DNA from: Elusimicrobiota bacterium
GTDB taxonomy: Bacteria; Elusimicrobiota; UBA8919
DNA: 64,000 nucleotides
Assembly: GCA_028718185.1 (NCBI GenBank)
Contig: JAQUMH010000004.1
Coordinates: 136,334-200,333 of the forward strand
Direction of reading: 5' to 3'
The notes beneath the pieces are model-generated. The model was not told where the DNA came from, did no database searches, and saw only the letters and a program-made list of their open reading frames with translations. Within the stretch, counting starts at the first letter, position 1; the number at the start of each line of letters is the position of its first letter. The translations under genes and the position numbers were made by a program. Below are positions 9,143 through 59,795 of this stretch, piece after piece.

Positions 9143-9167
9143 TTTTGTCACCTCCCTATTAACGAAA

Positions 9168-9209
9168 GAATTAAGAATTCAGGATTCAGGACTCAGAATA
9201 CAGAATTCA
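9168..9209. repeat. Heptanucleotide array over the nnrE stop codon
   Basis: Six 7-base units on the plus strand: GAATTAA, GAATTCA, GGATTCA, GGACTCA, GAATACA, GAATTCA. The array runs from the space before the Lrp-like gene into the 3' end of nnrE and supplies the last codons and the stop codon of that gene. Confidence 0.85.
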
Positions 9210-9852
9210 GCTTAATACCTATATCAACGACATAAATCTTACCTGATAACTTTTTACCATCGTTTAAAAGTAGTCCTTGTTTCATGGCTGTCATAGTAAC
9301 AGTGACTTTTGCCTTTACTGCAGCTCCCAAACTAAATCCTGTGTCGGTATCTATGCCTGATGGTATATCAATTGATACTACGGGTTTCTTCAATGAGTTT
9401 ATTTTTTCAATTACTTGTTTATATGGTTCCCGTATTTTACCGCTAATTCCGATGCCCAGTAGCGCATCAACAATTAAATCTGTTTTAAAGTATTTTAATT
9501 TATCTGAATATAAATTAATAATCGGAACTTTGATTTTTCTTATAATTTTCAGATTAAGCCGTGCAATATCTTTATACTTATTTTCTTTCTGTATAATAAA
9601 TACTTTTACTTTTACATTTTTATTAAAAAGATGTCTTGCAACTACAAAACCATCACCACCGTTATTCCCGCCACCGCAGAATATTGCTACATGTTTTGGA
9701 TGAAATCTTTTCAAAATAATTTCTGCTACATTTTTTCCGGCGTTCTCCATTAGAACAACCGGTGGAATTAAATGTTTTTCAACAGCAATTCTTTCAAAAC
9801 TTCGCATTGCTGATACTGATATTATTTTGCATCTCTTAATAATTTTGCGCAT
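9193..9852 (-). CDS. nnrE: NAD(P)H-hydrate epimerase (YjeF_N domain only)
   Basis: Interconverts R and S forms of damaged, hydrated NAD(P)H so that a dehydratase can repair it. The protein of about 219 residues has the YjeF_N signatures VSAMRSFERIAVEKHLIPPVVLMENAG near the N-terminus and the GGGNNGGDGFVVARHL nucleotide loop around residue 62. In E. coli YjeF the epimerase is fused to the ADP-dependent dehydratase; here the C-terminal kinase-like half is absent, so NnrD must be elsewhere or missing. The start at 9850-9852 overlaps galT by about 30 bases and gives the usual family N-terminus. The last four residues and the stop are encoded by a heptanucleotide array. Confidence 0.88.
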   Translation of the reverse strand: MRKIIKRCKIISVSAMRSFERIAVEKHLIPPVVLMENAGKNVAEIILKRFHPKHVAIFCGGGNNGGDGFVVARHLFNKNVKVKVFIIQKENKYKDIARLNLKIIRKIKVPIINLYSDKLKYFKTDLIVDALLGIGISGKIREPYKQVIEKINSLKKPVVSIDIPSGIDTDTGFSLGAAVKAKVTVTMTAMKQGLLLNDGKKLSGKIYVVDIGIKLNSVF

Positions 9853-17374: not shown

Positions 17375-17446
17375 CGCTCCTGACAGGAGTCGAACCTGCA
17401 TGACCAGCTTCGGAGGCTGGTGCTCTATCCGTTGAACTACAGGAGC
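17375..17446 (-). tRNA. tRNA-Arg (anticodon CCG)
   Basis: Reads CGG codons. The 72-base gene folds as a complete cloverleaf: acceptor arms GCTCCTG and CAGGAGC, D stem GTTC/GAGC, anticodon stem CCAGC/GCTGG around loop CTCCGAA (anticodon CCG), and T stem GCAGG/CCTGT with TTCGACT loop. The discriminator base is G and CCA is not encoded. Its first ten bases overlap the last codons and stop of alaS. It is probably cotranscribed with alaS and released by RNase P. Confidence 0.95.
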
Positions 17447-20073
17447 ATCTTTTCAACTGATAAAAGTGCTTCATCCAGCTTTGAAATATCTTTTCCGCCT
17501 GCTTGTGCCATGTCAACCCTGCCACCGCCGCCACCACCAACTATTTTAGATATTTCTTTTATTATGCTTCTGGCATCATATTTTTCAGTTAAGTCGTTTG
17601 TTATAGAAGTAATTATAGATGGTTTCTCATTTATAACTGAACCGGTTACTATAATTCCGGACTTGATTTTGTTTTTGAGGTTGTCTGTAATATTTCTCAG
17701 TTCTTCAATAGAAGAAGCATCTACTTTTACAGTTAATAACTTTATTCCTTTAATAGTTTTAATATTTTTCAATAAATCCTCATCGGACGTTTTAGACATT
17801 TTTGATTTTAGAACATCTTTTTCAAGAGATTTCTTTTCATTTATCAATTTCTGAAGTTTTGAGATTACCTCATTTTGAGACGATTTTAACAGTTCGGAGA
17901 TTTCCATTATTGTATCTCTTTGATTTGACATCATATTATATGAATGTATCCCGGTAATACCTTCAATTCTTCTTAACCCGCTACCAATACTACTTTCAGA
18001 AACAATTATAAACTGTCCTATCTCACCGGTATATTTACAATGTGTTCCGCCGCACAGCTCAACGCTTTCGGGTTTTTGTTCGTCACCAATAATCACACAC
18101 CTGACTTTTTCACCATATTTTTCACCAAATAACGCCATTGCTCCTATTTTTTTCGCTTCTTCAACAGTAGTAATCTTTGTTGTAACCGGTAAGTTTTCCA
18201 GTATTCTCTTATTTACATGTTCCTCAATAAGCTTTAATTCTTCTCTTTTTAGCTGTGTTGTATGAGAAAAGTCGAACCGGAACCTTTCATCTGTAACTAA
18301 TGAACCACGCTGTACAACATGATTCCCGACAATCTGCCTTAATGCTTTGTGAAGAAGGTGAGTCACTGTATGGTTTTTCATAATATTTCTTCTTCGCTGA
18401 AGATTAATTTCCAAATCAACAGTATCTCCTATTTTCAAAACACCTTTTGTAATTTTTGCTTTGTGAATGATAAGATTTTCTACGGGTTTTTGAGTATCAA
18501 GTATCTCAGCTTGACTTTGAATCCCCCGTCGGGATTCATTGAGGTCTGAGACTTCGGACATCGGACTTCGGACTATTATCTTGCCTTCATCTCCTATCTG
18601 TCCCCCACTCTCCCCATAAAACGTTGTCTCTTTTAGAATAAGCTCAACCTCGTCACCTTCTACTGCTTCTTCAACCACTTTACCGTCTTTTACAAGTGCT
18701 ATAATTTTAGACACGATTTTTGTCTCGCTATAACCGCTGAATTCCGTATTTCCATATTTTTTATATAATACGTAATAACTGTTTATATCAACGTCTCCTG
18801 AACCTTTCCATGATGTTTTCGAACGATTTCTTTGAGTTTCCATTTCTTTTTCAAACTCTTTTTCATTTACGGTAATTCCTGCTTCTTCTAATATTTCTTT
18901 TGTTATTTCAAATGGAAAACCGTATGTATCATACAAAACAAACGCATCTTTTCCCGAAATTGTTTTTCTATTTTTTTTAAGATTTTCAAGAATTTCCATT
19001 CCTTTTTCAAGTGTCAATAAAAACTTTTCTTCTTCCATTTTTATAATTCTTAAGATATGTTCCCTTTGAGCGGTAAGTTCAGGATATGCTGTCTTCATGG
19101 TCTCTATAACTTCCCCGCATACTTTATATAAAAACGGCTCATTTAATTTTAGTTTTTTACCGTGAGTCAATGCACGTCTTAAAATTCTCCTTAATACATA
19201 GCCTCTTCCTTCATTAGAAGGCAAAATTCCGTCAGATACCATAAAAGTCATTGCACGACAGTGGTCTGAAATGATTTTAACTGAAACACTTTTCCTTTCT
19301 TGCGACATATTTTCCACAAAATGAACAATTTTAGATAATTCATCAATTTCATAATTTGTGTTGACATTTTGTACGACTGATGCAAGCCTTTCAAGCCCCA
19401 TACCGGTATCGATATTTTTTTGCGGCAAATTCTTTAATGTACCATCAGTCTGCTTATCGTATTGTGTAAAAACAAGATTCCATATTTCCAGATATCTATC
19501 GCAATCGCAACCCGGTTTACATGATGGTTTTCCACAACCCCTATCTTCTCCTGTATCATATAATATCTCTGAACATGGACCGCACGGTCCAACATCTCCC
19601 ATCTGCCAGAAATTAGAATCTTCTCCCAGCTTAATAATTCTATTTTTTGGAATTATCTTCTCCCATATTTTATATGCTTCTTCGTCATCTCTGTAGACTG
19701 AGACATACAGTTTTTTCTTATCTAATTTGATTTCATTTGTCAGAAAATCCCACGCCCATTCAATTGTTTCTTTTTTAAAATAATCCCCGAACGAAAAATT
19801 ACCTAACATTTCAAAAAACGTCAAATGCCTTGCCGTGTGTCCTACTTTTTCTATGTCTGAAGTCCTTAGACACTTTTGTATAGATGTCGCTCTTTGTTTT
19901 TTGCCATCTACTTTCTGAATACCTAAATAATAATTTTTGAACCTAACCATTCCCGCAGATGTAAATAACAAAGATGGGTCCGATGAAGGAACAAGAGAAT
20001 CACTTGTAAATATTTTATGTTCCCTTTCTTCAAAATACTTTATATATTTTTTCCTGATTTCATTTGTATCCAT
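17437..20073 (-). CDS. alaS: Alanine--tRNA ligase
   Basis: Charges tRNA-Ala. The 878-residue protein has all three parts: a class II aminoacylation core (TSAGMVRFKNYYLG, GPCGPCSEI, NTGMGLERL-type motif 3), an editing domain (HTVTHLLHKAL and CGGTHCKYTGEIG zinc ligands), and a Gly-rich C-Ala domain (VGGGGGGRVDMAQAGG). Compared with the usual sequence, about 16-18 residues (VRSPMSEVSDLNESRRG) are inserted after GGQIGDEGKI in the linker before the editing domain. This insert is encoded by a hairpin plus heptamer array at 18519-18575. The stop codon lies inside tRNA-Arg. Confidence 0.96.
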   Translation of the reverse strand: MDTNEIRKKYIKYFEEREHKIFTSDSLVPSSDPSLLFTSAGMVRFKNYYLGIQKVDGKKQRATSIQKCLRTSDIEKVGHTARHLTFFEMLGNFSFGDYFKKETIEWAWDFLTNEIKLDKKKLYVSVYRDDEEAYKIWEKIIPKNRIIKLGEDSNFWQMGDVGPCGPCSEILYDTGEDRGCGKPSCKPGCDCDRYLEIWNLVFTQYDKQTDGTLKNLPQKNIDTGMGLERLASVVQNVNTNYEIDELSKIVHFVENMSQERKSVSVKIISDHCRAMTFMVSDGILPSNEGRGYVLRRILRRALTHGKKLKLNEPFLYKVCGEVIETMKTAYPELTAQREHILRIIKMEEEKFLLTLEKGMEILENLKKNRKTISGKDAFVLYDTYGFPFEITKEILEEAGITVNEKEFEKEMETQRNRSKTSWKGSGDVDINSYYVLYKKYGNTEFSGYSETKIVSKIIALVKDGKVVEEAVEGDEVELILKETTFYGESGGQIGDEGKIIVRSPMSEVSDLNESRRGIQSQAEILDTQKPVENLIIHKAKITKGVLKIGDTVDLEINLQRRRNIMKNHTVTHLLHKALRQIVGNHVVQRGSLVTDERFRFDFSHTTQLKREELKLIEEHVNKRILENLPVTTKITTVEEAKKIGAMALFGEKYGEKVRCVIIGDEQKPESVELCGGTHCKYTGEIGQFIIVSESSIGSGLRRIEGITGIHSYNMMSNQRDTIMEISELLKSSQNEVISKLQKLINEKKSLEKDVLKSKMSKTSDEDLLKNIKTIKGIKLLTVKVDASSIEELRNITDNLKNKIKSGIIVTGSVINEKPSIITSITNDLTEKYDARSIIKEISKIVGGGGGGRVDMAQAGGKDISKLDEALLSVEKMLL
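18519..18575. repeat. Hairpin plus heptanucleotide array inside alaS
   Basis: A hairpin GAATCCC-ccgtc-GGGATTC is followed after three bases by five 7-base units on the plus strand: GAGGTCT, GAGACTT, CGGACAT, CGGACTT, CGGACTA. The segment is in frame and encodes an insertion in the alanyl-tRNA synthetase that common homologues lack. Confidence 0.8.
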
Positions 20074-25840: not shown

Positions 25841-26523
25841 AAGTATCCCATTTTCTCCAATGTTTCAAAAGTTATTTTTTCTTTTGATGTTCCTTGAATT
25901 ACGTATTTTGCTAAAACATCAGTTTCAATATTTACCATATCTCCGCTTTTTCTTGCTACCAACGTTGTGTTTTTTAACGTATGTGGAATTATTGCTACAG
26001 AAAAAGACCCTGCCTTTTTATTTACAACAGTTAAACTTATACCATCAATAGCAACCGAACCTTTTTCAACGACATACGTAGACATATTTTTATTAATAGA
26101 AAAGTTCCATACTTCAGAATTCTTTAATTTTGAAACTGACAGAATTCTCTCAACACTATCAATATGTCCTGTAACAAAATGTCCTCCAAACCGACCGTCA
26201 GATTTAACCGCTCTTTCAAGATTAACCTTATCCCCCACCTTCATATTCTTCAGGTTAGTCATTTTTAATGTTTCTTCAGAAATATCGAATAAGAGATTAG
26301 AGATTAGAGATCCCGCCACTTCCTCCACTCCCTCCACTGAATCTTTGGCGGACAAGAAACCGTTTGCGGGCAGGGATAGTTTAGAGTTTGTAACCGTTAA
26401 ACATACACCGTTGACACAGATACTGTCACCTATTTTAATATCATTAAGCTTTGTTTCAACACTAATTTGTGTTTTACTTATTTTTTTAATTATACCAATA
26501 TCTTCAATTATCCCTGTAAACAT
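25837..26523 (-). CDS. ribE: Riboflavin synthase alpha chain, with internal insertion
   Basis: Dismutates two 6,7-dimethyl-8-ribityllumazine molecules to riboflavin. The start at 26521-26523 gives the universal N-terminus MFTGIIEDIG. Two lumazine-binding repeats follow (GDSICVNGVCLTVT in the first, GHFVTGHIDSV and later GSVAIDGISLTVV in the second). About 25-30 extra residues (starting SKLSLPANGF and ending VAGSLISN) interrupt the first repeat before FDISEETL. The insert is made of repeat DNA (26293-26340 and flank). The length of about 228 residues is greater than the usual 200-215. Confidence 0.93.
   Translation of the reverse strand: MFTGIIEDIGIIKKISKTQISVETKLNDIKIGDSICVNGVCLTVTNSKLSLPANGFLSAKDSVEGVEEVAGSLISNLLFDISEETLKMTNLKNMKVGDKVNLERAVKSDGRFGGHFVTGHIDSVERILSVSKLKNSEVWNFSINKNMSTYVVEKGSVAIDGISLTVVNKKAGSFSVAIIPHTLKNTTLVARKSGDMVNIETDVLAKYVIQGTSKEKITFETLEKMGYL
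26293..26340. repeat. Short tandem arrays inside ribE
   Basis: On the plus strand three heptamers (GAGATTA, GAGATTA, GAGATCC) are followed by 9-base units (CCCGCCACT, TCCTCCACT, CCCTCCACT). The segment is in frame and encodes much of the insertion in riboflavin synthase; the rest of the insertion extends to about 26380. Confidence 0.75.
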
Positions 26524-28746: not shown

Positions 28747-28785
28747 ATAAATAAACAGACTTATCCTGCTTTTTATTATTTTATT

Positions 28786-28904
28786 ACTCTTCTATTATCC
28801 GGACTTTTACCGTCGGTATCTGAATTTCACAGATTCGGTCCCAATTTTATCGGAATTAGCGGACTATCACCGCCGGTAATGAATTTCACACAACCCCGAA
28901 GAGT
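28786..28904 (-). promoter_or_regulatory. FMN riboswitch (RFN element)
   Basis: On the minus strand this contains the conserved RFN parts in order: P1 5' arm ACTCTTC, TTCGGGG, GTGTGAAATTC, ACCGGCGGTGATAGTCCGC, a variable stem with GACCGAATCTGTGAAATTC, ACCGACGGTAAAAGTCCGGAT, and the P1 3' arm GAAGAGT. P1 pairs over seven bases. FMN binding should favour the downstream terminator and shut off ribD-PHP-ribE-ribBA-ribH. Confidence 0.95.
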
Positions 28905-28910
28905 TTTTAT

Positions 28911-44035: not shown

Positions 44036-44111
44036 GCACGCCAAGGGCGTGCAACTACAAAAATTGAAATTCCTATATGTAAATAAATAGATGCTGAAAC
44101 GAGTTCAGCAT
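44036..44111. repeat. GCACGCC hairpin repeat plus a second hairpin
   Basis: GCACGCC-aag-GGCGTGC followed by AACTACAA (44036-44060) recurs exactly at 54949-54973. A second hairpin ATGCTGAA-acgag-TTCAGCAT lies at 44091-44111. Both stand between the glycosyltransferase gene and the restriction-modification genes. Confidence 0.75.
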
Positions 44112-54948: not shown

Positions 54949-54973
54949 GCACGCCAAGGGCGTGCAACTACAA
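54949..54973. repeat. GCACGCC hairpin repeat, second copy
   Basis: Exact copy of GCACGCC-aag-GGCGTGC plus AACTACAA seen at 44036-44060. It lies between the DUF2142 gene and the ars promoter. Confidence 0.75.
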
Positions 54974-59711: not shown

Positions 59712-59714
59712 AAT

Positions 59715-59795
59715 AGAGTTTTAGAGTTTTAGAGTTTTAGAGTTTTAGAGTTTTAGAGTTAACGCTATAACCCTATAACACTATAACTCTATAAC
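59715..59795. repeat. Octanucleotide arrays upstream of the RodZ-like gene
   Basis: Nearly six perfect units of AGAGTTTT (59715-59760) are followed by four units of the form NCTATAAC (59764-59795). The first array is almost undecayed. It ends four bases from the ATG of the RodZ-like gene and fills the entire space to the lolA stop. Confidence 0.9.

Follow-up and report, generated by a model that had tools for sequence, protein, structure and literature searches.

Short 7- and 8-nucleotide repeat arrays in a loop of alanyl-tRNA synthetase and in other protein loops of Elusimicrobiota

Most known examples of selfish DNA embedded in proteins come from Rickettsia and Wolbachia. Rickettsia palindromic elements are short repeats that interrupt unrelated housekeeping genes without shifting the frame and fall in non-structured segments of the encoded proteins, and similar coding palindromes occur in Wolbachia and Methanocaldococcus (PMC10969869, PMC2996958). 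Heptameric simple repeats, such as GGGANTN in Xanthomonas, GGGGA(C/T)T in Nostoc and TAACTGA in Beggiatoaceae, are mainly intergenic (PMC4692102, PMC4679880). Here, we analysed a repeat block inside the alaS gene of an uncultured Elusimicrobiota bacterium, within a stretch of 64,000 nucleotides (the window) on contig C4 of a 3.03 Mb draft genome.

In outcome the AlaS block resembles the Rickettsia palindromic elements, but it lacks two of that system's defining features. In both systems unrelated coding genes carry in-frame insertions, and non-structured or surface segments are hit, here the hairpin turn of AlaS and loops of nine other genes. However, the Rickettsia elements are palindromes of ~150 bp with a conserved peptide per family, whereas the Elusimicrobia arrays are short, non-palindromic and read on either strand; even the hairpin nested in AlaS is only 19 nt. 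Many interchangeable units also exist here, and the same loops appear to be refilled. The likeness to Rickettsia elements proposed in the first-pass annotation extends to the outcome and no further, the type of sequence being different.

With bacterial heptameric repeats, the arrays share a tandem 7-nt unit that is dispersed and above chance. The GGACNTY unit of the AlaS block resembles Xanthomonas GGGANTN in its preference for about four units and in its fixed positions 1-4 and 6. In contrast to the intergenic repeats, most GGACNTY loci are genic, many units coexist, and orthologous loops exchange units. Components of REPIN/RAYT systems, namely Y1 transposases (7 copies) and GTAG-hairpin REPs, are present in the genome, but each REPIN copy has a GTAG tetranucleotide and a palindrome while the arrays have neither, and the GTAG hairpins form a separate family. 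The literature searched, from which subscription journals were largely absent, contained no account of orthologous protein loops with interchangeable arrays.

Anatomy of the repeat block in AlaS

The AlaS of the window is homologous to solved AlaRS (E 6e-141) and shares 69-73% identity with AlaS of the same family. The first-pass annotation had reported an in-frame insertion of a hairpin plus five heptamers, and both its sequence and its coordinates are confirmed, with the reading frame open throughout the block (Table 1). The period of 7 bases was also called independently by Tandem Repeats Finder (GACTTCGGACATCGGACTTCGGACT, 18550-18574). Of the five heptamers, three are clean units; the other two are degenerate and lie inside the nested piece. 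On the plus strand the whole block (18513-18574) reads GACTTTG, then AATCCCCCGTCGGGATTCATTGAGGTCTGA, then the units of the main array. The extra unit GACTTTG beyond the hairpin means that the array consists of four GACNTYG units followed by GACT and is interrupted by a 30-nt piece. The minus strand of the main array, GTCCRAN, encodes VRSPMSEV, and an example of a sequence-derived peptide spanning the joins is IIVRSPMSEVSDLNESR. With up to two mismatches, CGGACNTCGGACNT has 5 matches in the window, a number reached by 0/100 shuffles.

Table 1. Positions of the repeat block and other features in the window
Feature	Position	Strand	Remark
alaS, alanyl-tRNA synthetase, 878 aa	17437..20073	-	ORF; carries the insertion
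GACTTTG, first unit of the 7-nt array	18513..18519	+	separated from the remaining units by the nested piece
Palindrome (hairpin) GAATCCCCCGTCGGGATTC, 19 nt	18519..18537	.	
Nested piece, 30 nt, SDLNESRRGI (10 residues)	18520..18549	.	from comparison with L070, L071 and L074
Main heptamer array, units GACTTCG, GACATCG, GACTTCG and GACT	18550..18575	+	GGACNTY family
AlaS codons for residues 500-518	18520..18576	-	extended beta-hairpin turn
Two abutting 8-nt arrays, TAGAGTTT (6 copies) and TAACACTA/TATAACNC	59714..59795		roughly mutually inverted
7-nt arrays, AGAATTC type and AGAGATT	9166..9210 and 26292..26311		
Palindrome family CCCCTCA.CTTTC.TCTTCTCCCC-GGGGAGAAGAAAG..TGAGGGG	343, 4107, 24010, 28672, 44181		
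GTAG-type REP hairpins GTAGTTGCACGCCCTTGGCGTGC	44036..44052 and 54949..54965		
tRNA gene	17375..17446		ordinary
FMN riboswitch	28783..28907		ordinary

In AlaS of genus g4 (L070, L071, L074) the same array is unbroken, and the proteins differ by exactly the ten residues SDLNESRRGI. The GACTTTG unit fits the uninterrupted array of L070, the 7-nt register is perfect once the 30-nt piece is omitted, and no target-site duplication was found for the piece in comparison with these three genes. Judged from this alignment of sequences, the 30-nt piece is most probably a separate insert into an older array that is still uninterrupted in AlaS of the sister genus. An assembly or binning artefact was rejected because three independent MAGs of another genus share the GTCCGAA array in AlaS with intact frames.

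An AlphaFold2 model of AlaS (mean pLDDT 79) places residues 503-517 in the turn of a beta-hairpin with strands 497-502 and 518-531, and pLDDT falls below 50 at residues 506-515. The invariant GGQ..D.G segment (residues 490-497) is intact. In an alignment of 44 AlaS, the loop is much shorter, only a few residues, in most phylum relatives from other families. Model and alignment both agree with the original proposal of an essential enzyme with a repeat inserted in frame into one of its surface loops. Conservation of the extra residues in other phyla, which the first-pass annotation had named as counter-evidence, was not seen, as the block residues were not found in any of the aligned AlaS outside the phylum.

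The hairpin and the heptamers had also been read as one element. This did not hold: the heptamers belong to a dispersed family, whereas the hairpin core AATCCC..GGGATT occurs at only 4 scattered loci in 3 Mb. A single mobile element comprising both was rejected, since hairpins of this type are almost absent from the rest of the genome. Other arrays are likewise split in register, without duplication, by GC-rich or palindromic pieces of 21-30 nt (30 nt in AlaS of the window and in AlaS L078; 27 nt in KdtA L155 and in NadC and HypF of the own genome; 21 nt in the array of L032). Several of these pieces are of the CTGCC..GGCGGGC type; the piece in the window AlaS is not.

The window also contains at least five copies of CCCCTCA..TGAGGGG palindromes, with more in the sampled DNA, as well as GTAG-type hairpins of a kind that adjoins a Y1 transposase gene in L280. 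In L282 (2415-2999), a Y1 transposase gene has a duplicated in-frame peptide, FVAAPSNGANK.

Dispersal of arrays and the coding filter

The pattern TCGGACNTCGGAC has 69 overlapping matches genome-wide, compared to 0 for the reversed pattern. Together with those of a further pattern search, these matches collapse to 35 unique loci with sharp borders, 30 of which have 4-5 GAC cores, in non-palindromic arrays typically 25-32 nt long. Twenty-five of the 35 loci are within open frames of at least 250 codons, and at least 20 are in frame in genes. Besides AlaS, the hosts include IleS, SerS, UvrB, CarA, HisF, Ddl, NadC, ThrB, KdtA, HypF and glycosyltransferase-like proteins, names that rest on recognised sequence motifs rather than a family search. 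The insertion in AlaS is not an isolated event but one of many, in many housekeeping genes and with many types of unit. In nine genes besides AlaS, the array blocks fall in alignment-variable loops. SerS does not have the IGEVKKYDFEP segment that its relatives keep, and an array block stands at that place.

Within the GGACNTY unit, positions 1-4 and 6 are fixed while 5 and 7 vary, as in Xanthomonas GGGANTN (PMC4692102). Such a pattern could mark a functional signal under selection, either for a DNA-binding protein, for CsrA-type RNA binding or for regulated translation. However, both orientations occur in genes (about 14 GTCC-coding and 11 GGAC-coding, giving VRSPKSEV-type and TSDIGHR-type peptides), and unrelated units occupy the same place in relatives. 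We consider a selected signal quite improbable.

We performed a lag (self-match) analysis on 400 kb sampled at even spacing across the genome. Self-matching segments numbered 16 at lag 7 and 22 at lag 8, with 6 and 11 at the multiples 14 and 16, compared to 0-4 at lags that are not multiples and approximately 0 in shuffled sequence. Enrichment was confined to lags 7 and 8 with their multiples, both in this sample and in the genomes of relatives. Units in the genome include GGACNTY, AGTAGGR, AAGATTN, AACTAYN, TATAACNC, ATCCCACN and others. In the window itself, further arrays of both periods are present (Table 1), and its AGAGATT array sits inside a 248-codon open frame.

Among 97 arrays of all units from the sampled DNA, 28 were coding (inside a frame of at least 150 codons), so the wider population is mainly outside genes. 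One strand was open in all three frames for 22 of the 28 coding arrays, compared to 27 of the 69 non-coding arrays (p=6e-4). This bias, a coding filter, is what random arrival followed by loss of harmful insertions predicts. Two properties make GGACNTY well suited to pass such a filter: a 7-nt array gives an identical 7-residue peptide whichever frame is read, and all six frames of this unit are free of stop codons.

The three-unit pattern was found in only 8 of 295 Elusimicrobiota genomes, which are the genome studied here, five of its family and two others; in G158 the search matched the reversed control too. When 20 genomes were sampled for arrays, density was high only in the own family (G004, G005 and G006; lower in G002 and G003) and in G011 of family f5. 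Dispersed arrays occur in the genomes of the own family and of at least one further family.

Different repeats in the same loops of relatives

Nine array-bearing gene segments were located in eight relatives, seven of the same family and one (G008) of the sister family; all strain pairs compared were at most 95% identical. Arrays were called at a lag score of at least 13 for 7- or 8-nt periods. In the same family, 24 of 54 orthologous loops carried an array compared to 0 of 202 flanking windows (Fisher p=4e-19), although the nine loops were picked for their array in the own genome, so the count shows repeated targeting of these loops and not of every loop. No array was called in the 8 loops of G008. 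Orthologues without an array have short loops.

The units at orthologous loops usually differ from those of the own genome. Ddl loops carry TTCTACC, GTCTACC, AAATTAC, CCACTAA or CCAAATT; UvrB loops carry the 8-mers CTCACCCG, CTCGCYCA and ATCGCACY or the 7-mers ACTTCCC and AAGTCCG; CarA loops carry ACTCCCT or ACTCGTT. AlaS loops carry AAGTCCG, AAAGTTA, AAATTAC or AAAATTA, with CAGGTTA in family f5, and loop length is identical in six relatives despite four kinds of unit. Units in IleS are AAGTCCG, AAATCCG, AAGAGCG and GGGACGA. Within genus g4 alone the IleS unit is AAGTCCG, AAGAGCG or GGGACGA, and this difference among three species of one genus indicates that turnover is fast on the genus scale. 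Different repeats in the same loop of related species suggest that protein loops are rewritten by repetitive DNA, and the comparison as a whole points to interchangeable 7/8-nt arrays that fill loops across the lineage and turn over fast.

The uvrB gene of the own genome (L036) has more embedded repeats: EHKNTRTQERPLS, probably of the 8-nt type, adjoins the array, and GIRTQEHQNIRTLERRSS lies immediately before the Walker A motif.

Units of orthologous loops are somewhat more similar to each other (0.26) than to those of other loops (0.18, p=0.005). This would be expected if arrays grew in place from chance short repeats by replication slippage, which has been proposed to explain why heptamers predominate among the long simple repeats of many bacteria (PMC4679880, PMC4692102), and the restriction of enrichment to periods 7 and 8 is also in its favour. 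However, slippage does not readily explain why a single unit recurs, with 4-5 copies and sharp array ends, at about 35 distinct loci, nor why a conserved segment in SerS was replaced rather than merely extended. Units are also about equally similar whatever their distance within an array (0.89, 0.92, 0.90, 0.90), a result that led us to reject stepwise error-prone copying along the array. We regard local slippage as an unlikely source.

Candidate sources of the arrays

Some arrays occur in inverted pairs. In L209, L212, L213 and L223 (G003, G004), (GTCCGAA)4 is followed by (ATTGGAC)4, in 3 of the 4 after a loop of about 9-11 nt, and an inverted partner is present at 6 of the 35 GGACNTY loci of the own genome. 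From their sequence, such pairs would form a stem with one G-T pair and one A-A mismatch per seven bases. These pairs raise the question of whether the arrays are half-elements of a MITE- or REPIN-like element moved by Y1 (RAYT) transposases. Gene counts were promising, with Y1_Tnp in 7/7 family relatives (1-6 copies), 7 in the own genome and none in the sister-family genome G008, and Y1 genes in L280 and L283 are flanked by GTAG hairpins. The sampling of 20 genomes weakened this case, as Y1 presence neither predicted arrays nor was required for them: arrays were not found in the Y1-rich genomes G031, G036 and G040 (40 kb each), while the Y1-free genomes G016, G018 and G024 have some (few in the three Y1-free f3 genomes). 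The arrays are also non-palindromic and do not have the GTAG-hairpin form. Movement by Y1 transposases is somewhat less likely than slippage.

A defined period with variable unit positions would resemble imprecise templated repeats, as if a reverse transcriptase or telomerase-like enzyme added repeats at breaks. RVT_1 was not found in the array-bearing genomes G001, G002, G003, G005, G006 and G007, compared to one in the own genome, and we consider templated addition very improbable. Carriage by phages was rejected, as the four-copy unit matches 56 viral stretches and the reversed control does likewise. Our data therefore do not support reverse transcriptase, viral carriage or Y1 transposition as the source of the arrays.

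We give about an even chance to the reading that the AlaS block belongs to a large dispersed set of short (about 25-35 nt) 7/8-nt arrays that survive in tolerant loops, are refilled, and arrive as patches joined by microhomology. Arrays would be copied to many sites, and those surviving in genes would be the ones that keep the frame, contain no stops and lie in an indel-tolerant surface loop. The same loops would be hit or refilled repeatedly, which would leave orthologues with different units. In AlaS, a second event would have placed the 30-nt palindromic piece into the array. We infer that arrays arrive as short single-stranded patches that replace or add to loop DNA at forks or breaks; such arrival would require no dedicated transposase, and the arrays would need no role other than tolerated loop filling.

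Double illegitimate recombination of short single-stranded DNA, as in Acinetobacter, would give insertion or replacement of patches without duplication; to our knowledge, it has not been described with repetitive patches of a fixed 7/8-nt period. Patch arrival agrees with the exact joins, with the occurrence of both replacement and insertion, and with the limited similarity of units in orthologous loops, although this slight similarity also fits in-place evolution of units or coding constraint. The sequences flanking the arrays have diverged, which obscures any microhomology at the joins. Microhomology-driven patch insertion combined with purifying selection is our preferred hypothesis for the mechanism.

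In a different arrangement, seen at four loci of the own genome (L031, L032, L047 and L051, at about position 1500 of the locus), an AATGTCC array and an inverted GGACTTC array enclose a signal-peptide-like segment, MSNVK.KW.IFIFFILLLTSDFGLRTSDC. The four host proteins are apparently exported and otherwise unrelated, and in 3 of the 4 loci the DNA between the inverted arrays is alike beyond 1000 shuffles. The segment looks as if it were a copied signal-peptide cassette. A tentative alternative, possible but doubtful, is that an active, dedicated process makes and exchanges 7/8-nt patches, with loops as overwritten landing pads that include mobile signal-peptide cassettes bounded by inverted arrays.

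Whichever process supplies the arrays, protein-embedded repeats in these Elusimicrobiota are frequent, of another sequence type than those described before, and fast in turnover, with species of one genus differing in the same loop. The preference of long simple repeats in bacteria for a 7-nt period, and their spread, become testable. The variants in AlaRS, IleRS, SerRS, UvrB and Ddl form a natural series of loop replacements with which the sequence tolerance of essential enzymes can be tested.
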